47,850 nt of DNA, taken from a virus. The notes below the pieces were generated by a model, which was given only the letters and a program-made list of their open reading frames with translations, was not told the origin of the DNA and ran no database searches. The stretch's first letter is position 1. The number at the start of each line of letters is the position of its first letter. The translations under genes were made by a program, and so were the position numbers. Location of the stretch: positions 1 through 47,850 of IMG/VR virus record IMGVR_UViG_3300042868_003340; one strand, written 5' to 3'. Below are positions 34,795 to 44,815 of the stretch, piece by piece.

Positions 34795-35802
34795 ATGAAA
34801 AAAATCGGATTTGCATGTAAATGGATCGATAATCCGTCTCAAGTCAACGGTATTAAGCCAAATGATGACGCTAAGAAGTACAATACCGGCTCTACGACCG
34901 TTGCATGGTTAAATAGACAGAGCAAAGCTGTAGCCGAACAAAAACTCTGGGACTTAATGGTTCAGAATATCGAATCTACTCGGTTGCTTGTCAAACGTGT
35001 AGGAGGACTAGATGAAAATCTTAGAATGGTACGACTCAGCAGCGATATATTACCTGTGTACACTCAGTCGATTTGGGGCGGGTTTTGGCGGACTCCCGAT
35101 GTTAGAGCATATTGTGAAAGAGCATTTGGAGACGTGGGAGCTTTGGCTCGTGCGTCTAACGTTCGGTTGTCTATGCATCCTGGTCAGTTTACTGTGTTGG
35201 CATCTGATAACCCTGACATAGTAAATCGAAGCATTGAGGAATTTGAATATCATGCGGATATGGTCAGATGGATGGGGTTTGGTCAAAGATATCAGGACTT
35301 TAAGATCAACGTCCACATCTCCGGTAGAGCCGGTCCCGATGGTATTCGGTCTGCCCTCAAACGCCTTACCCCCGAAGCAAGAAACTGCATTACCATCGAA
35401 AACGAAGAAAACTCATGGGGACTCGACTCTACCATTGAGCTTGCAAAAGACTGTGCCCTTGTACTTGATATACACCACCACTGGTGCCGTGAAGGAGAGT
35501 ATATTAAACCCACCGACGATAGATTTAAGAGGGTAGTCGAATCCTGGAGAGGAGTTCGTCCAGTAATTCATTACTCAGTTAGCAGAGAAGAATGGCTTCC
35601 TGGACACTGCAAGGATACGTTGCCTGACATGGCACAACTATTAGCAACTGGATTCAAAAAACAGAAGTTACGTGGTCATAGTAACTTCTTTTGGAATAAT
35701 GCAGTAAATGAGTACGCACTTACATTCTTAGACCATACAGATATCATGTGTGAGTCTAAGGGTAAGAATCTTGCTAGTTTTGCACTAGCAAGTACTCTCT
35801 AA
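34795..35802 (+). CDS. uvsE: UV damage endonuclease (UvdE/UvsE)
   Basis: This 335-residue TIM-barrel endonuclease nicks DNA 5' to UV photoproducts and other lesions. Diagnostic stretches are RLSSDILP, RLSMHPGQF, ITIENEENSWG and VLDIHHHWC, which carry the His/Glu/Asp metal ligands. IHYSVSREEW, near the end, also matches. Length and order fit the family. Phages of sunlit waters often carry such genes. It is a single-gene unit with its own extended -10 promoter and a strong terminator. Confidence 0.93.
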   Translation: MKKIGFACKWIDNPSQVNGIKPNDDAKKYNTGSTTVAWLNRQSKAVAEQKLWDLMVQNIESTRLLVKRVGGLDENLRMVRLSSDILPVYTQSIWGGFWRTPDVRAYCERAFGDVGALARASNVRLSMHPGQFTVLASDNPDIVNRSIEEFEYHADMVRWMGFGQRYQDFKINVHISGRAGPDGIRSALKRLTPEARNCITIENEENSWGLDSTIELAKDCALVLDIHHHWCREGEYIKPTDDRFKRVVESWRGVRPVIHYSVSREEWLPGHCKDTLPDMAQLLATGFKKQKLRGHSNFFWNNAVNEYALTFLDHTDIMCESKGKNLASFALASTL

Positions 35803-35842: not shown

Positions 35843-36178
35843 TTAGGCTTTCGGAGCCCTTGGCTTTGTTGCAGGTGCTTTTTTGGCCGCTGCCGGCTTT
35901 TTAGTCCCTGTAACTTTTTTAGCAACTACTGTTTTAACACTAGCATCTGCAACTTTAGGAGCACGAGGCTTACGTGGTTGCTTTACAGGGGCAGCTTCGA
36001 CTTTAGGAGTCTCAACAACTTCTGTAATAACAACCGGCGTATCTGCTACAGGAGCAGGCTCATCAACCTTATATGGTGCAACAGGTGTAGAAACCTGTGC
36101 CGGTGGCGTAGCTTCTGTTCTAAAGAACAGCCAATAAACTGCCGCAGCAGCGATTAAAAGAATAATAATTAATTCCAT
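35843..36178 (-). CDS. Membrane-anchored Lys/Ala/Pro-rich protein
   Basis: This 111-residue protein has one N-terminal membrane helix (ELIIILLIAAAAVYWLFF), then a Pro/Val/Glu-rich linker to about residue 65. The C-terminal 45 residues are histone-H1-like: Lys, Ala, Pro, Thr with several KKP/KAP units. It could tether DNA or peptidoglycan to the inner membrane. A divergent TAAATA box lies about 30 bp upstream, suggesting late expression. The protein at 307 has a related composition. No family is recognised. Confidence 0.75.
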   Translation of the reverse strand: MELIIILLIAAAAVYWLFFRTEATPPAQVSTPVAPYKVDEPAPVADTPVVITEVVETPKVEAAPVKQPRKPRAPKVADASVKTVVAKKVTGTKKPAAAKKAPATKPRAPKA

Positions 36179-36344: not shown

Positions 36345-37070
36345 ATGCTAACAATAAAAAACGTATCCGCAACAATAGATGCAACTGATCTATTAACTGA
36401 CATTTCATTACAAATCGATCCAGGTGAAATACATGCAATTTTAGGCCCAACAGGGTCTGGCAAAAGTAGCCTTGCTCACTTAATTTCCGGGCATCCGGAT
36501 ATTTCTCAAATTGAGGGGACTATAACTTACAACAAAAAAGACCTATCTAAATTGGATAGTAGCAGTCGTAGCGCAATGGGGATCTACATTGCGTTCCAAA
36601 CAGTTCCGGAAATTATAGGTCTTAGCAATTTTGACTTTGCTAAACTAATACTCAAAACAAAGAAAGATAAAAGAACCGAACATGAAATAGAAAGAGATTA
36701 TAAGACATTATCTACTATGTTAGCGTTACGTCCTACTCACGGATCGCTAATGATGGATTATGACGAATTGGCTCCGTCAGAATTTAGAAAGAATGAAATT
36801 CTTTTAATGTTACTAATTAATCCAAGTCTAATTATCATTGACGAAATTGATACTGATTTAGACGAGGAAGATATAGCCGTAGTCGGTGCTGTACTTAACA
36901 GTTGCATCGACGATAAAAGTTCACTGATCTTAATTACTCATAATAGAACACTACTAGATATAGTTGTACCTACGCATGTACACATATTAGTAAATGGGAA
37001 AATAAAAGAACAAGGTGGCCCAGAATTATATAAAAGGATCATAGAAGATGGCTATTCACAGTTTTCTTAA
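36345..37070 (+). CDS. sufC: SufC-like ABC ATPase
   Basis: This 241-residue ABC-type ATPase is of the Fe-S cluster assembly branch. Walker A GPTGSGKS is at 34-41, the Q-loop Gln is in AFQTVPE near 85, Walker B LIIIDE at 162-167 and the H-loop His199. NEILLMLL after the signature and DEIDTDLD match SufC. The ABC signature itself is degenerate: L-A-P-S-E (142-146) in place of LSGGE, which may weaken ATP hydrolysis. It overlaps the SufD-like gene by 23 bp. The ATG is just six bases after the -10. Confidence 0.85.
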   Translation: MLTIKNVSATIDATDLLTDISLQIDPGEIHAILGPTGSGKSSLAHLISGHPDISQIEGTITYNKKDLSKLDSSSRSAMGIYIAFQTVPEIIGLSNFDFAKLILKTKKDKRTEHEIERDYKTLSTMLALRPTHGSLMMDYDELAPSEFRKNEILLMLLINPSLIIIDEIDTDLDEEDIAVVGAVLNSCIDDKSSLILITHNRTLLDIVVPTHVHILVNGKIKEQGGPELYKRIIEDGYSQFS

Positions 37071-37872
37071 AGCAGAAAAGGGAGATCCAGATTGGCAATT
37101 TTCACCGGAAAATTATTTCGGAAAAGAATTCAAACTGATCGATGCTAGTACAATAGAGCTAGCAGAAAATCAAAGCAACCTAATGGTTCTTCGACAAACT
37201 CCCACAGAAAAAGATTTATTAGCAAAGCATATTAAGATTGAAGTAAAAGATGAATCTAAATTAGATTTAATCATCCTTAATGAAGCGAATGATAAACTGC
37301 AACAAATTTTCTTATATGATATTCACGTACATCAGGGTGCTGGCATTAACTTAGGAATCTTTGCCAAAAACGGCAAATTTAATAAACATATCTTTCAGGT
37401 ATATTTAGAAGCTGGAGCTGAATTTAACAACTACGGACTTATGTTTAACGACTGTGGCGGCGATACAGAAATTATCACCAAAGTAGTTCATCAACATGAA
37501 GATAGTCATAGTACACAGTTTGTTCTAGGAATGTCCGGTAAAGACAGTCAAACTGTCTATCAAGCAATGACTATATTAGATGAAGGTGCCGACGGAAGTG
37601 AAGCTAACATCGAATCAGATAACATTATCATGGAAGAAGGTGGTCGTTGCTATTCTAAACCAGATATCTATGCCGATTGCAATAATGTCCGATCTTCACA
37701 TGGATGCACTACTCAGTTCTTAGATGAAGACAAAATTTATTATCTACAGACTAAAGGCATAGAGTTCGATAAAGCCAAGGAAGTCATTATAAAAAGTTTT
37801 CAAAATAGAGTGTTTGATGTTATTCCTTACGAAGACATTAAAGAAGAAGTAAAGCAACTATTTTCTAATTAA
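37048..37872 (+). CDS. sufD: SufD/SufB-like Fe-S scaffold protein
   Basis: This 274-residue protein is shorter than host SufD (about 420) because the N-terminal part is reduced. The beta-helix core and C-terminal domain are present. KPDIYADCNNVRSSHG contains the conserved His of the SufD cluster site. LDEDKIYYLQTKGI and a final helix with AKEVIIKSF follow. The Cys typical of SufB at this site is a Ser here, so it is SufD-like. With SufC it could remodel the host SufBCD complex. No other suf gene is visible in the window. Confidence 0.82.
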   Translation: MAIHSFLKAEKGDPDWQFSPENYFGKEFKLIDASTIELAENQSNLMVLRQTPTEKDLLAKHIKIEVKDESKLDLIILNEANDKLQQIFLYDIHVHQGAGINLGIFAKNGKFNKHIFQVYLEAGAEFNNYGLMFNDCGGDTEIITKVVHQHEDSHSTQFVLGMSGKDSQTVYQAMTILDEGADGSEANIESDNIIMEEGGRCYSKPDIYADCNNVRSSHGCTTQFLDEDKIYYLQTKGIEFDKAKEVIIKSFQNRVFDVIPYEDIKEEVKQLFSN

Positions 37873-37981: not shown

Positions 37982-40900
37982 ATGTCGTACAATCCTATCA
38001 CTTCTATATCAGGAAACGGTGTTCTAGGGCAGGTAACTGCTACTATAACTACCGGTTCATCTTTTTGGAATATTGTAACACACAATATGCCAGGCCAAGC
38101 CATCACTGGCACCTTCCCTAATAGTCAGAACAGTTTTTCTATTCTTTCTCAGAATTTTAATTACACATGGCCATATAGAGGCGGCAAAAATTTACCTAAT
38201 CCTGCTACTAGAACAACTACTCCTACTGGGGAAGTTGGTATTAGTGCAATTGGAGTTGTACTTTATAATTCAAGATCGCCTATAACTGTATCTGGGCAAA
38301 ACGGAACTATATGGAATCTTAACTCAGTTGTTGCAAAAATATTTGGTGAAGATATATACGGCGGTAGACCTACTGGTACTGGTATCTACAATTATCACGA
38401 TAACGGTTTCATTAAAAATAATGCATGGGGATCAATAACAACATCAACGTTTAGTGGTGGTAGCTATACACAGTTGGCCGACGGCCATAGTAAAATAATC
38501 GGTTGGGCAAAAGACGGATATCCTATTTACGGGCCATTCGGATATCAAACACCTTTAGATATTTTTAGTCCGGTTGTACGTATGCAGTCTGGCTATCAAA
38601 TTAACTTACGAACTAATCGACCAATTACTAGAAATGTAGTTGTTAACGGTGCCGTGACATCATCAACTAGTTTCCTTGTTTATAGCACATCGGGCATTAC
38701 CACTGGCTTGGATCTGTCGGGCGCCACACTTACTAGTCCAGCCAAGATTATAGGAATATTTGGAACAACAATTACTGTAAAAAATCCGGTAACATTGGCG
38801 GCTGGTAGTATATTAACGGCAAGCTACACACCGGGTACATTTGTTGAAGATTGGACACACTATGCTTCGGATAATGTTCTTGATATTTTCAATGGAAGAT
38901 ATTGCGTAACTCCAGAATATCCTAACGGAACTTATGCATATTTCTTAACAACAGATACATCAAATAATCCAACATATCCATATATTGTAGGTCCTAGTTT
39001 TTACGGATCTACAACTATAGATAGTACAAACACTCAATTAACAAATATCATTCCGGCGTTGGGAGTATTAACACCTTCGTTTTCATCAACAATAACCAAT
39101 TATACAATTACTGTTGATAACATTAATACATCAACACGATTTACTGCTTTTATAAGTAGTCCATTATCTAGTCTAAGATTCAACGGCCAGCCACTTGGCT
39201 CCGGAGTGTTATCACCTAGTATACCAATTAGTGTAGGATTAACTACTTCTACCTTTGCAGTAACATCTCAGTATCAAACTACTTCTACATACAGTGTTAC
39301 CGTTAATCGATTAAGAAAGTCAGTAAAAGATTTATCTAATTTGTTGTTGTCAGTTGGGACTCTATCTCCTGTATTTGATGCCAACGTAACTAGTTATTCT
39401 GTTACATATAATACAGCTCAATCTAGCATTGATATTACTGCGACTCAGTTAGACGCAGAATCTAGTATTATAATTGAGGGAAGTGCAGCAACGTCCGGGT
39501 TGGCAGCAACTGTTAATTTATCCTATGGTGTAAATGTTATCGAAGTTGTAGTTATTGCAGAAGATGAAACTACAAAAACATATACAATTAACGCCACTCG
39601 ATTAAGCAACATTGCCGGATTAAGTGGAATTACTACTAATCGAGGATTAGTTAGTCCTACGTTTAATCAAAATATATATGCATATTCATTAACAGTAGAC
39701 AATACAACTACTTCTATTAATGTTAGTGTAGATCCAATAGATACCTTATCGCAGATTTATATTGATGGGGTGTTAACATTAGCAAATACATTATCAGATC
39801 CTATTAATCTAACTATAGGATTTAATCCTATAGGTATTAGAATTATATCATCTGACGGATCAACAACTCAAAATTATAGAATTAATGTTGACCGTATAAA
39901 GAGTGGTATTTCAACATTAGATGCAATTTCTTTAAGTAGTGGTAGTTTATCTCCCTCTTTTAGTACTGGCACAACATCATATACTGTTAATTTAAGCAAT
40001 CTAACTACTGGTATTAGCGTTACTGTACAACCTACAGAAATTAATGCTAATATTAAAATAAATGATATTACTGTCAATGCAGGAGCTACGTCACAACTAA
40101 TTCCGTTGAATGTAGGATCTAATCAAATTGAGATTATTGTTACATCTCACAGCGGTATTGTACAGACTACCTACACTGTTATAGCGACTAGAGCAGCTAG
40201 TGCAATAAGTAGCCTAAGTAATTTATTAGTATATAACGCTGTTTTATCGCCTAGTTTTTCTTCGGGTGTTTACAACTATTCTGATACCGTAACTTTTAAT
40301 ATTCAAAATACTGTTGTTAGACCAACCAGTACAGATGTTAATTCTACGATTAGAGTAAACAATGTATCTGTATTATCTAATCAAGAAAGTCAATCTATAC
40401 CCTTAGTAATAGGTGTAAACACTGTCACTACAGTAGTGACTGCTCAAGATGGAATTTCTACATCTACTTATAGAGTGGTGCTAACTCGTAGAGATAATTT
40501 TGATGCAACATTGGCTCTATTATCTATAAATGTAGGAACATTAACTCCTGCATTTGATACAAATGTAACAGATTATTCTGTAAATTTATTACATAATGTA
40601 ACAGAACTAGAAATAAGTGCTATTGCATCTGACGCTGATATAACTGGTATTTTAATAGACAACGGAGTTGATCTAGTAACAACATCGACTTCTAACATAA
40701 TTGCAAATATTCCATTATACGGATCAATATACAATAATGCATGGGACGGGTTAACCGCTATTGAGATTATTGTATTGGCTGCAGATGGCGATAGTTATAA
40801 AAGCTATAATATTAATGCCACTAGATCAGCAAGCACAATCTCTACGCTAACTAATTTAACAATTAATTTATCTGGATTACAACCAACATTTGATCCTAAC

Positions 40901-43900
40901 GTAACTGAATACTACTTAGGTGTACCATATGCTACAGATCGTGTTAAGGTAACTGCTACTGCTGCATATCCGTTACAAGAATTAGTTATAAATGGAACTA
41001 TAACAACGTCTAGTCAGGCAAGTAACGATATTCTATTATATGTGGGAAATAATACTATTCCTGTATTGTCAATTGCGGCAGATCGGAATTATAGTACAGG
41101 TTATAACATTTTTATCAATCGGGCATCTCTTGGGTTGGATACTAATTCATTATTATCTAACTTAGAATTGAGCATCGGAACATTTAGTACTAATTTTAAT
41201 TCCAATGTAACTTCTTATCAAGTCAATATTCCGTACTCAGTAACTGAACTTGCTGTTAAACCTACTAAACAACGATCTAGTGCTAGTATTGAAGTTAATA
41301 ATCTAAATGTAATTTCTGGACAATTTAGTCCACTAATCTCTCTTGCAGTCGGTATCACTACAATTACCGTGTTAGTTACCGCAGAAGATAATACTACAAA
41401 AACAACATATACTATTACAGTTACTAGAACTGGCAATGTTGTTAGTTCGTTATCTAATCTATATGTTAGTGCCGGACAGTTAGATAAACCATTCAGTCCT
41501 ACAGAAACACAGTATTCAGTTAATGTAAAACATTCTACAAATCAAATATCAGTAAGACCATTTACTACCGACGACCAAGCAGTAGTTAGTGTCAACACGC
41601 TGGCGTGTACTCCTAATGAATGGTCAGCACCAGTTAACTTAAATGTAGGAGAAAATGTTGTTACTATTAGAACGGTAGCCGGAGATTTATTCAACGAAAC
41701 CATTTATCAAATTAAATTTATTAGAGCTGTTGCTGGAGTTGTAGATCCTACTGATTTATTTTTAGTCGATGCTACTAATATTTCTGCAAATTTTATTGCT
41801 CCAAATATTTTAAGAATATTCACAAAGGTTAATACTAACATTGTAACAAGAGGAACATTTCCTAATTTTTCAAATACCTGGACAGCGTCTTTACAGAATT
41901 TAGAAATTGTGTTTCCTTATAGAGGCGGTGAGAATCAACAAGCTGTAACAAAATTAATTAGATCAACTGATTCCACTATTGGTATTACTGTAGTAGGAAT
42001 TCCTATTAAAAGTCCTACAATAGGTGAAACTGTTGCAGGACTTAACGACACTGAATGGACAATTAATACAGTGTTTACCGGAGTATATGGTAATGATATC
42101 TACGGCGGATTAACTGGTCCTAATGGTTATTATTATGCAGACAATAGATTTGTATATAACGGTGGATGGAATAACACTCCTGAGTGGTATGGATTTATGA
42201 CGCATCCGGATGGCCACAGTAGATTATTAGGATACGCAGCAGACGGATATCCCATTTACGGACCGTACGGCTATTCAAAACCATTAACGTCTTACAGTAC
42301 CGTTACAGAAATGATATCTGCATATTCTGTAAAAATTGGACCAAACAGACCAACAGGAAAATCGATAACTTATAACGGTAATGAATTAGGTGCTAACATT
42401 CAATTGAATTCAACTGAGGGTGTAGCTAAAGGAATGCGAGTAACCGGAAGTCCAATTAGTACATCGACTAATGTTGTTGTCCTCAGTGTTAATACTATAA
42501 CAAATTATATTGGATTAAATCAGGCATTGTTGCTTGGTCCATTTGCATATAACCTAACAGTGAGTTATTCAGAAGGTGCATTCATTGAAGATTATTATTA
42601 CGATCCTGCTAAAACTTCTGCAACCTTAGATGTACATAATGGAAGATACTGTGTAACACCAGAGTACCCATTTGGAACATACGCTTATTTTTCTACAGGG
42701 GCTACTAAGCCAGAATATCCATATTTCATAGGAAATACTTTTTATGCGCCGCTAACCACAATCGATGCTAGTATTAAAAGTCCGCCTACTTGGGTAACAC
42801 CTGTTGGATTTATTGTTACAGCAACTGAAGGTATATCCATAAGTAGAACGGTTACTGCTACAGGTGGCGGAATTTCATACAAATTAATTTCTGGACAATT
42901 GCCACCTGGCATGGCAATTAATACATCCACTGGTGCAATATCTGGAACTCCTGCTATTGTATATCAAACAATAACATCAGACTTTATTGTTAGAGCAACT
43001 AATCAATGGGGAGTCATTGACAGAAAGTTTTCAATAGATGTCAAAGGGGCAACACCGCCTGTAATTACTACACCGGGACCCAGGCCAGCTGTTGGACCTA
43101 GCGGAGAAAGATATCTAGTAAACGGCCAAATAGTAGATTTTCAATTTAGTGCTACATCAGATATTTTACCGAGTGGTAAGAGTCTATTCTACTTTGTTGA
43201 AGATGGAGACGGTCAGCTTCCGCCAGGATTAACTCTTACATCCACAGGAAGATTGTACGGTCAAGTACAGGATAATTTGTCCTTGTTCTATAGAGCGGCC
43301 AGTGATGGAAGATACGATGCTGACTTGTATGATTTGAATCCGTATGAGCATGTAAGCATTCAAGAATTTGGAATTAAAAATAAATTTGTTAATCGTGTTT
43401 ATAGATTCTCGTTATCAGTATCTAACGGATTGGCAACTAAGAAAGCAGAATATACTATTGATGTTAATGATCCGGCAACCTATGCTGAGATAGGACCGTA
43501 TCCAGTTCCAGTACAATGGATAACTCCTACAAATTTAGGTAATGTTAGATCCAATACAAATATTGTAATTTCTTTAGAAACTCATGACTGCGACGAAGGC
43601 GGTGGTGCCGTTACTTATGACTGGTTTTCTGCCAATAATGGCGATCTATCAGTTGTGCCCGAAGGGTTATCTTTAGACGGTAATAGTGGTGTTATTAGTG
43701 GATTTATTAGATACACTCCTATATACAGTACAACTTATAATTTCAAATTAAGAGTTTACAAAACTAGTGTATTAACTGGTAGTACAAGTTATAGAGAAAA
43801 AAGTTTTAGTTTAACTGTATTAGGTTCAGTTATTAGCAGTATGGTGTTTGAGACTGGGACCGTTGTTGGCTTGTTATATCAAGGCGAACAGAGTGAATTA

Positions 43901-44815
43901 GCTATTACTGCAATTCATTCTGACACTTCATTAAACATAAATTATTCATTGCAAAGCGGTAGTTTGCCTCCAGGATTATCATTATCAATTGATGGTGCTA
44001 TACAAGGAGTAGTAAGTTATAATACTGCTACAACTGTTACTACAACTTATAGTTTTTCAGTTAAAGCAAAAGATAGTAGTCTTACTAACGAAATAATTGG
44101 AAACTTTAATATAGCTGTTTATCCTTATCAAGGTAAAAAATATACTAGTATTTTCATGCAGCCTCTATTAAGTCTAGACTCTAGATCAATGTATGAACAA
44201 TTTATAAATGATCAAAGTATATTCAATCCTGCATTGTTGTATAGAAAATACGATCCGGCATTTGGTATACAAACTTCTGTAAAATATGTAATAGAACATG
44301 CTATTGAAGAATTAAAGGTAGCGAGTTATGTACCGGCATTACAACAATATTTTAGCAGGAAAAAATTACAATTTGGATCAATAAAATCTGCATTTGCAAC
44401 AGATGCAGAAGGTCGTACAACATACGAAGTTGTATACGTAGAGTTATTTGATAATTTAGTAAATCAAAATGGTGTACCGATCGGTGCTTCTGTAGAATTT
44501 GAAAATACTATCAATTACCCGAGCAGTATTAATAATATGCGGGTTGCATTAGAAAGCGTAGGACAAACTGACGAATATCTATGGCCAAAGTTCATGAGGA
44601 CAGTACAAGGTGATACCGGCATGCCGCTAGGTAGAATATTATGTATGCCAATTTGTTTCTGCTTACCAGGTAGGTCAGTTACGGTCATAAACAGAATTAA
44701 TAACAGTGGATTTAATTTTAAGATGATTAACTTTGATGTAGATAGGATTGTCGTCCTAAATACCTCAGACAATAATACAACTAAATATTTGCTGTTCCCG
44801 AATAAAGAGGTATAA
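37982..44815 (+). CDS. Giant YHYH/cadherin-like virion protein
   Basis: This protein has 2277 residues. By eye the order is as follows. A YHYH domain spans about 60-345, with YNYHDNGF and DGHSKIIGW...DGYPIYGPFGY. Nine cadherin-like beta-sandwich repeats of 93-110 residues span about 350-1253; each opens with L.NL...G.LSP.F and closes with TY.I...R. A second YHYH domain spans about 1290-1600. Putative Ig-like repeats with LPPGL..S..G.ISG lie at about 1610-2050. A distinct C-terminal module spans about 2050-2277, with many aromatic residues. No signal peptide is present. It is probably a long tail or baseplate fibre that contacts the host. YHYH domains may bind metals or sugars. Confidence 0.85.
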   Translation: MSYNPITSISGNGVLGQVTATITTGSSFWNIVTHNMPGQAITGTFPNSQNSFSILSQNFNYTWPYRGGKNLPNPATRTTTPTGEVGISAIGVVLYNSRSPITVSGQNGTIWNLNSVVAKIFGEDIYGGRPTGTGIYNYHDNGFIKNNAWGSITTSTFSGGSYTQLADGHSKIIGWAKDGYPIYGPFGYQTPLDIFSPVVRMQSGYQINLRTNRPITRNVVVNGAVTSSTSFLVYSTSGITTGLDLSGATLTSPAKIIGIFGTTITVKNPVTLAAGSILTASYTPGTFVEDWTHYASDNVLDIFNGRYCVTPEYPNGTYAYFLTTDTSNNPTYPYIVGPSFYGSTTIDSTNTQLTNIIPALGVLTPSFSSTITNYTITVDNINTSTRFTAFISSPLSSLRFNGQPLGSGVLSPSIPISVGLTTSTFAVTSQYQTTSTYSVTVNRLRKSVKDLSNLLLSVGTLSPVFDANVTSYSVTYNTAQSSIDITATQLDAESSIIIEGSAATSGLAATVNLSYGVNVIEVVVIAEDETTKTYTINATRLSNIAGLSGITTNRGLVSPTFNQNIYAYSLTVDNTTTSINVSVDPIDTLSQIYIDGVLTLANTLSDPINLTIGFNPIGIRIISSDGSTTQNYRINVDRIKSGISTLDAISLSSGSLSPSFSTGTTSYTVNLSNLTTGISVTVQPTEINANIKINDITVNAGATSQLIPLNVGSNQIEIIVTSHSGIVQTTYTVIATRAASAISSLSNLLVYNAVLSPSFSSGVYNYSDTVTFNIQNTVVRPTSTDVNSTIRVNNVSVLSNQESQSIPLVIGVNTVTTVVTAQDGISTSTYRVVLTRRDNFDATLALLSINVGTLTPAFDTNVTDYSVNLLHNVTELEISAIASDADITGILIDNGVDLVTTSTSNIIANIPLYGSIYNNAWDGLTAIEIIVLAADGDSYKSYNINATRSASTISTLTNLTINLSGLQPTFDPNVTEYYLGVPYATDRVKVTATAAYPLQELVINGTITTSSQASNDILLYVGNNTIPVLSIAADRNYSTGYNIFINRASLGLDTNSLLSNLELSIGTFSTNFNSNVTSYQVNIPYSVTELAVKPTKQRSSASIEVNNLNVISGQFSPLISLAVGITTITVLVTAEDNTTKTTYTITVTRTGNVVSSLSNLYVSAGQLDKPFSPTETQYSVNVKHSTNQISVRPFTTDDQAVVSVNTLACTPNEWSAPVNLNVGENVVTIRTVAGDLFNETIYQIKFIRAVAGVVDPTDLFLVDATNISANFIAPNILRIFTKVNTNIVTRGTFPNFSNTWTASLQNLEIVFPYRGGENQQAVTKLIRSTDSTIGITVVGIPIKSPTIGETVAGLNDTEWTINTVFTGVYGNDIYGGLTGPNGYYYADNRFVYNGGWNNTPEWYGFMTHPDGHSRLLGYAADGYPIYGPYGYSKPLTSYSTVTEMISAYSVKIGPNRPTGKSITYNGNELGANIQLNSTEGVAKGMRVTGSPISTSTNVVVLSVNTITNYIGLNQALLLGPFAYNLTVSYSEGAFIEDYYYDPAKTSATLDVHNGRYCVTPEYPFGTYAYFSTGATKPEYPYFIGNTFYAPLTTIDASIKSPPTWVTPVGFIVTATEGISISRTVTATGGGISYKLISGQLPPGMAINTSTGAISGTPAIVYQTITSDFIVRATNQWGVIDRKFSIDVKGATPPVITTPGPRPAVGPSGERYLVNGQIVDFQFSATSDILPSGKSLFYFVEDGDGQLPPGLTLTSTGRLYGQVQDNLSLFYRAASDGRYDADLYDLNPYEHVSIQEFGIKNKFVNRVYRFSLSVSNGLATKKAEYTIDVNDPATYAEIGPYPVPVQWITPTNLGNVRSNTNIVISLETHDCDEGGGAVTYDWFSANNGDLSVVPEGLSLDGNSGVISGFIRYTPIYSTTYNFKLRVYKTSVLTGSTSYREKSFSLTVLGSVISSMVFETGTVVGLLYQGEQSELAITAIHSDTSLNINYSLQSGSLPPGLSLSIDGAIQGVVSYNTATTVTTTYSFSVKAKDSSLTNEIIGNFNIAVYPYQGKKYTSIFMQPLLSLDSRSMYEQFINDQSIFNPALLYRKYDPAFGIQTSVKYVIEHAIEELKVASYVPALQQYFSRKKLQFGSIKSAFATDAEGRTTYEVVYVELFDNLVNQNGVPIGASVEFENTINYPSSINNMRVALESVGQTDEYLWPKFMRTVQGDTGMPLGRILCMPICFCLPGRSVTVINRINNSGFNFKMINFDVDRIVVLNTSDNNTTKYLLFPNKEV
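44755..44763 (+). promoter_or_regulatory. Possible late promoter box
   Basis: CCTAAATAC within the end of the giant gene lies about 55 bp before the next ATG. It matches the TAAATA core seen before other virion genes here. Confidence 0.3.

Follow-up and report, generated by a model that had tools for sequence, protein, structure and literature searches.

The window – here the whole stretch of viral DNA that was analysed, a linear 47.85-kb fragment from IMG/VR – carries a gene for a SufC-like ABC ATPase followed by one for a short SufD-like protein, whose start codon lies inside sufC, with an overlap of 23 nt between the two reading frames. The pair and its conserved neighbours are laid out as follows:

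34795–35802, plus strand: UvdE-like UV endonuclease (PF03851), the conserved upstream neighbour of suf (45 of the 56 loci compared)
36345–37070, plus strand: SufC-like ABC ATPase of 241 aa, signature-less (TIGR01978 match, AF2 model)
36444–36470, plus strand: Walker A, GPTGSGKSS, its Lys invariant in 41/41 distinct relatives
36768–36782, plus strand: degenerate ABC signature, LAPSE (FSGGE in E. coli), from motif alignment
36828–36845, plus strand: Walker B, LIIIDE, its Asp invariant and its Glu present in the window
36936–36947, plus strand: H-loop, THNR, its His present in the window
37048–37872, plus strand: short SufD-like β-helix protein of 274 aa (PF01458 at 119 bits, AF2, Foldseek)
37078–37095, plus strand: N-terminal SufD motif KGDPDW, with DPDW invariant in 41/41
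37648–37650, plus strand: Cys201 of SufD, within GRCYSKP (Cys in 34/34 SufCD-only pairs)
37699–37701, plus strand: His218 of SufD, aligned to E. coli SufD His360
37982–44815, plus strand: giant YHYH/cadherin-like structural protein, the downstream neighbour (PHROG baseplate wedge/virion protein, PF14240, PF12733)

The sufC model TIGR01978 is by far the leading NCBIfam match of the SufC-like protein at 187.7 bits – below the curated cut-off of 212.8 for this equivalog – and the top PDB sequence matches are the SufC proteins of E. coli and Thermus. Its AF2 model (pLDDT 94) most closely resembles SufC of the SufC–SufD complex (2zu0 chain C; TM 0.93, rmsd 1.6 Å). An earlier note on this DNA had described a SufC-like protein with intact Walker A, Walker B and H-loop and with LAPSE in place of the signature, and this description is confirmed. 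The SufD-like protein covers positions 14–232 of the 232 in the SUFBD core model PF01458 and scores 142 bits on the sufD model TIGR01981, under the cut-off of 222. Only SufB, SufD and SmsB are found among the significant Foldseek matches of its AF2 model (pLDDT 93) in the PDB, and this model comprises a whole β-helix and three C-terminal helices. The same note had called the protein short and lacking much of its N-terminal domain: the N-terminal helical domain is indeed absent from the model, whose core begins near residue 27, but the β-helix core is nearly complete, and both the SUFBD core and the C-terminal SufC-binding helices are present.

Scans with both proteins and with alignments placed an overlapping sufC–sufD pair at the same site in about 50 IMG/VR contigs, several of which, at 200–354 kb, therefore come from large phages. 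The pairing is unbroken throughout the family, the reading frames are intact in every full-length copy, and the locus is syntenic: UvdE comes first, then a small ORF on the minus strand and, in many cases, an Fe/Mn superoxide dismutase, after which the suf block leads up to the giant structural gene.

Three stages can be distinguished at this one locus. In stage (i) (L035, L036, L040 and L089), sufB, sufC and a short sufD share the locus with sufS, an A-type carrier gene and SufE/SufT; SufC has an ASGGE signature, its Walker B motif retains DE, and the His of the H-loop is present. In stage (ii) (L037–L039 and L078–L083), sufB is missing from a block of sufC, sufD, sufS, IscU and an A-type carrier, and the SufC signature reads STPSE or ASAGE, with a Walker B DD. 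In stage (iii), which comprises the window and 33 more distinct pairs, sufC and sufD stand alone at the locus. SufC is thus canonical in every relative that encodes SufB and non-canonical in every relative that does not. When whole records were searched with PF01458, a second SUFBD protein turned up in those whose SufC is intact (G017, G018, G021 and G038–G041) and in none of the other 35, those of 326–354 kb included; most SufCD-only contigs span the entire sufB site, and no SufB with the cluster Cys is encoded in the window's 47.85 kb. Equivalent searches of SufCD-only records yielded no SufS (PF00266); two of the records encode IscU (G005 and G016; PF01592), and five encode A-type carriers (G005, G009, G010, G016 and G023; PF01521). 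In G005 (278–280 kb) and G016 (282–284 kb), a separate IscU gene is flanked by two A-type carrier genes, distant from sufCD.

Residues were counted over 41 distinct pairs: 34 SufCD-only, four with SufB and three that carry SufS without SufB. Lys40 of Walker A and Asp170 of Walker B, the positions for Mg-ATP binding, are conserved in all 41 (hence in 34/34 SufCD-only pairs each), and Gln85 in 33/34 SufCD-only pairs. An intact SGG signature, by the SufC alignment, occurs in none of the 34 SufCD-only pairs – Gly148 being retained in 0/34 and Gly149 in 2/34 – and is missing also from the three SufB-less pairs that carry SufS. The earlier note's inference of a phage SufC/SufD-derived pair with altered ATP chemistry is thereby supported, and the signature alignment on which it was to be checked reveals the opposite of a usually normal phage SufC, such that a local mutation is ruled out. 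Other catalytic positions of SufCD-only pairs have been given up less uniformly: Walker B Glu171 is retained in 25/34 and lost in 9/34, the H-loop His203 retained in 16/34 and lost in 18/34, and one clade has lost both Lys152 and Glu171, which in resting SufC form a salt bridge (PMC6006206). The four SufB-carrying pairs, by comparison, retain every catalytic SufC residue and the SufD His.

In SufD, the equivalent of the cluster-site His360 is present in all seven pairs with SufB and/or SufS and in only 4/34 SufCD-only pairs (lost in 30/34). The earlier note's statement that SufD keeps the cluster His and not the SufB Cys accordingly holds for the window, where His218 is present and Ser190 occupies the position of SufB Cys405, but not for the family. 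Cys201, on the other hand, is found in every SufCD-only pair, in some of which (L006, L027 and L085) it is the sole Cys of SufD, whereas position 201 is Ala in six of the seven pairs with SufB and/or SufS, and Cys201 occurs in one of the four SufB-carrying pairs. It belongs to a set of fixed residues peculiar to SufCD-only SufD (Ala59, Asn78, Gln117, Asp139, Gln168, Asn192 and Cys201) and lies on the same strand as Pro205, four residues ahead of it. As Pro205 aligns with Pro347, which together with His360 has been placed at the SufD dimer interface (PMC6006206), the invariant new Cys presumably sits on a dimer-interface strand.

A second enzyme of the operon has undergone a comparable change in SufB-less relatives, in which the following SufS homologues lack the catalytic Cys:

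L078: 7980–9164: Cys-less SufS homologue
L082: 9464–10648: Cys-less SufS homologue
L037: 8797–9801: Cys-less SufS homologue

In L078–L083 the catalytic Cys motif has changed from GFLCAQP to GHLNARP, and in L037/38 the PLP Lys has gone along with the catalytic Cys; the IscU next to these SufS genes retains its three Cys residues. SufS of L078/L082 is under purifying selection (dN/dS 0.053). Since SufC and SufS have both lost catalytic residues yet selection on them has been kept, two enzymes of the operon have become retained pseudoenzymes.

In the SufC tree, all SufCD-only sequences form one branch (100/99, or 94/98 once the motif columns are removed), and L078–L083 are nested in the SufB-carrying clade (95/88); the SufD tree likewise places L037, L078 and L082 within the SufB-carrying clade (95/86) and gives a SufCD-only branch at 100/100. 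Because the SufCD-only branch is separate and L078–L083 are nested in the intact clade, these topologies support two independent losses of sufB, signature decay having accompanied sufB loss at least twice. A sign test for the co-loss of sufB and the signature did not reach significance, there being too few independent events. Mapped onto the SufD tree, the H-loop His changed at least eight times, Glu171 three times, Cys201 once, and Lys40 and Asp170 not at all. Both sufC and sufD are under strong purifying selection, with dN/dS of 0.02–0.18 between signature-less SufC pairs and 0.01–0.23 for SufD where dS could be estimated, which argues that the pair is not decaying; the mean column identity in the family is 58–67%.

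The conserved SufCD pair probably acts through binding rather than catalysis. More specifically, we suggest from these sequence comparisons that it is the retained remainder of a phage SUF operon with a binding-only role on host Fe–S assembly proteins, a reading to which we would give a probability of roughly 0.4. The ancestral phage operon (sufB–sufC–short sufD–sufS–sufE/T–iscA) would have had no further need for catalysis once SufB was lost. A SufC2D2-type complex would probably still assemble, in which SufC, retaining Lys40, Gln85 and Asp170, may bind Mg-ATP without turnover – the lost signature presumably preventing it from closing as an ordinary ATPase dimer does, or from turning over like one. 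Such a complex could dock on host Fe–S assembly proteins, with SufB and SufC as the obvious candidate partners, through the end strands of SufD and the dimer face of SufC, and would act there as a non-productive subunit that restrains or re-times host SUF during infection. What points to binding alone is that SGG is absent from SufB-less pairs and intact in those with SufB; loss of catalysis, rather than its adjustment, is favoured because SufC integrity tracks the presence of phage SufB and because SufS, too, has lost its Cys. Against this reading, the window SufC, which retains Glu171 and His203, could hydrolyse ATP if a canonical host SufC supplied the signature, and a decoy has no need of an invariant new Cys.

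That Cys is the core of a different account, possible but on the whole unlikely, in which the pair is a stand-alone holder of metal or Fe–S: a SufD homodimer, clamped by ATP-bound SufC, would hold iron, sulphide or a cluster at a new site around both Cys201 residues and deliver it to proteins of the phage or the host with no ATP cycle involved. Its appeal lies in the fixation of Cys201, to which the SufD tree gives a single origin as the old ligand His360 disappears, in the nearness of this Cys to the Pro347 equivalent at the dimer interface (PMC6006206), and in the IscU and/or A-type carriers that several members encode elsewhere and the superoxide dismutase that in many adjoins sufC. With a single Cys per subunit, however, a dimer can supply no more than two thiolate ligands, and cluster binding is not known for any SufC2D2. 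Less probable still is the earlier note's own proposal, that the phage pair substitutes for host SufCD with altered ATP control, taken here to mean a SufB–C–C–D complex with one altered ATP site that maintains the Fe–S supply. A mixed dimer of host and phage SufC would indeed have one complete site, made of phage Walker motifs and the host signature, and since the window lineage retains Lys40, Glu171 and His203 together with SufD His218, replacement is possible there. For the family it is unlikely: E. coli SUF requires SufC Lys40, Glu171 and His203 and SufD His360 (PMC6006206), all of which except Lys40 have been lost repeatedly, and the phages that carry SufB have kept a canonical SufC. The proposal is thus unsupported as a general explanation.

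A role outside Fe–S biology, for instance as a virion or assembly component, seems to us about as improbable as replacement. In most contigs the pair adjoins baseplate- or tail-like genes, just ahead of the giant structural gene, but its upstream neighbours are auxiliary (UvdE, superoxide dismutase and QueD) and related phages have whole SUF/ISC modules at the same site. As to a functionless, decaying remnant, the loss of several catalytic motifs might suggest one, yet the low dN/dS, intact frames, column identity and unbroken pairing leave it almost no credence, pseudogene decay being ruled out by the first two.

ABC proteins with degenerate nucleotide sites, in which Walker A and B are retained and the signature is lost, offer a parallel for phage SufC. 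Unlike the asymmetric ABC pairs with one degenerate half, phage SufC is a cytosolic non-transporter of which every copy is degenerate. E. coli SufBC2D/SufC2D2 (PDB 5awf and 2zu0) shares with the phage pair the homologous SufC and SufD core folds and the C–D gene order; it differs in that the phage record has no SufB, the phage SufC has lost its signature, Glu171, His203 and SufD His360 are dispensable in the phage family, and the phage SufD has acquired Cys201 but has no N-terminal helical domain. SmsC2B2 of the SMS system (Methanocaldococcus, PDB 9h78) is likewise encoded by two genes, for an ATPase and a short β-helix partner devoid of a long N-terminal domain. SmsC, however, is a working ATPase whose Cys-bearing C-terminal tail binds a [4Fe–4S] cluster (PMC12192291), whereas phage SufC ends in EDGYSQFS with no Cys tail, and the window SufD-like protein scores 24 bits on the SmsB model against 142 on SufD. 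Phage Fe–S auxiliary genes have been reported before, namely nifU/iscU and sufE in viromes (PMC8940887), but these are, as far as reported, single canonical genes, whereas here an ATPase/β-helix pair has lost catalysis. A search of open-access papers turned up no description of a sufCD pair in phages.

The SufC ATPase is regarded as essential for SUF, and phages nonetheless keep SufC and SufD without SufB or a normal ATPase. With graded intermediates at one locus and strong selection, the family offers a testable case for a SufC–SufD role beyond cluster assembly, and it suggests that phages may steer host Fe–S metabolism by pseudoenzymes in place of active auxiliary enzymes. A broader formulation, 'pseudo-SUF' – a phage lineage having made a complete Fe–S operon into non-catalytic pseudoenzymes, namely SufC and in some members SufS, and a short SufD, which control or sequester host assembly by binding – is put forward tentatively, as something rather short of an even chance; if true, it would make SufC2D2, which in E. 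coli is considered probably not physiological (PMC6006206), a dedicated, physiological complex.

Some further observations concern the origin and surroundings of the pair. Among 84,980 species genomes of bacteria and archaea, a scan guided by profiles and using two peptide patterns recovered only distant SufB/D proteins (17 matches at 20–28% identity), on which ground a bacterial origin of the close family was rejected. Host assignment through RIIA and NAMPT was uninformative, the matches being scattered over many hosts. INPHARED gave distant SufC/SufD matches only, judged to be mostly host-type or contaminant DNA; one such record, of Microcystis phage MaAM05 (MW495066.1, 261309–273876; L015), was rejected as a close relative. 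Towards its end it has a complete suf operon of bacterial type together with panB and panC, possibly host or contaminant DNA. In the window, 30022–30681 matches PHROG 3704 'ferredoxin' at 257 bits, with no Pfam match and a Cys pattern unlike that of an ordinary ferredoxin, and the label may be wrong. The window has no superoxide dismutase gene beside its sufCD or elsewhere; the Fe/Mn enzyme (PF00081/PF02777) is encoded at L006:1830–2396 and in about 25 relatives, mostly immediately upstream of sufC. The small minus-strand ORF between uvdE and sufC (35843–36178), conserved in about 32 relatives, encodes a product with a membrane-like N-terminal segment and a Lys/Ala/Pro-rich tail. Finally, the more distant large phages L098 and L099/L100 have a full SufB, a canonical SufC and a still shorter SufD of about 190 aa.
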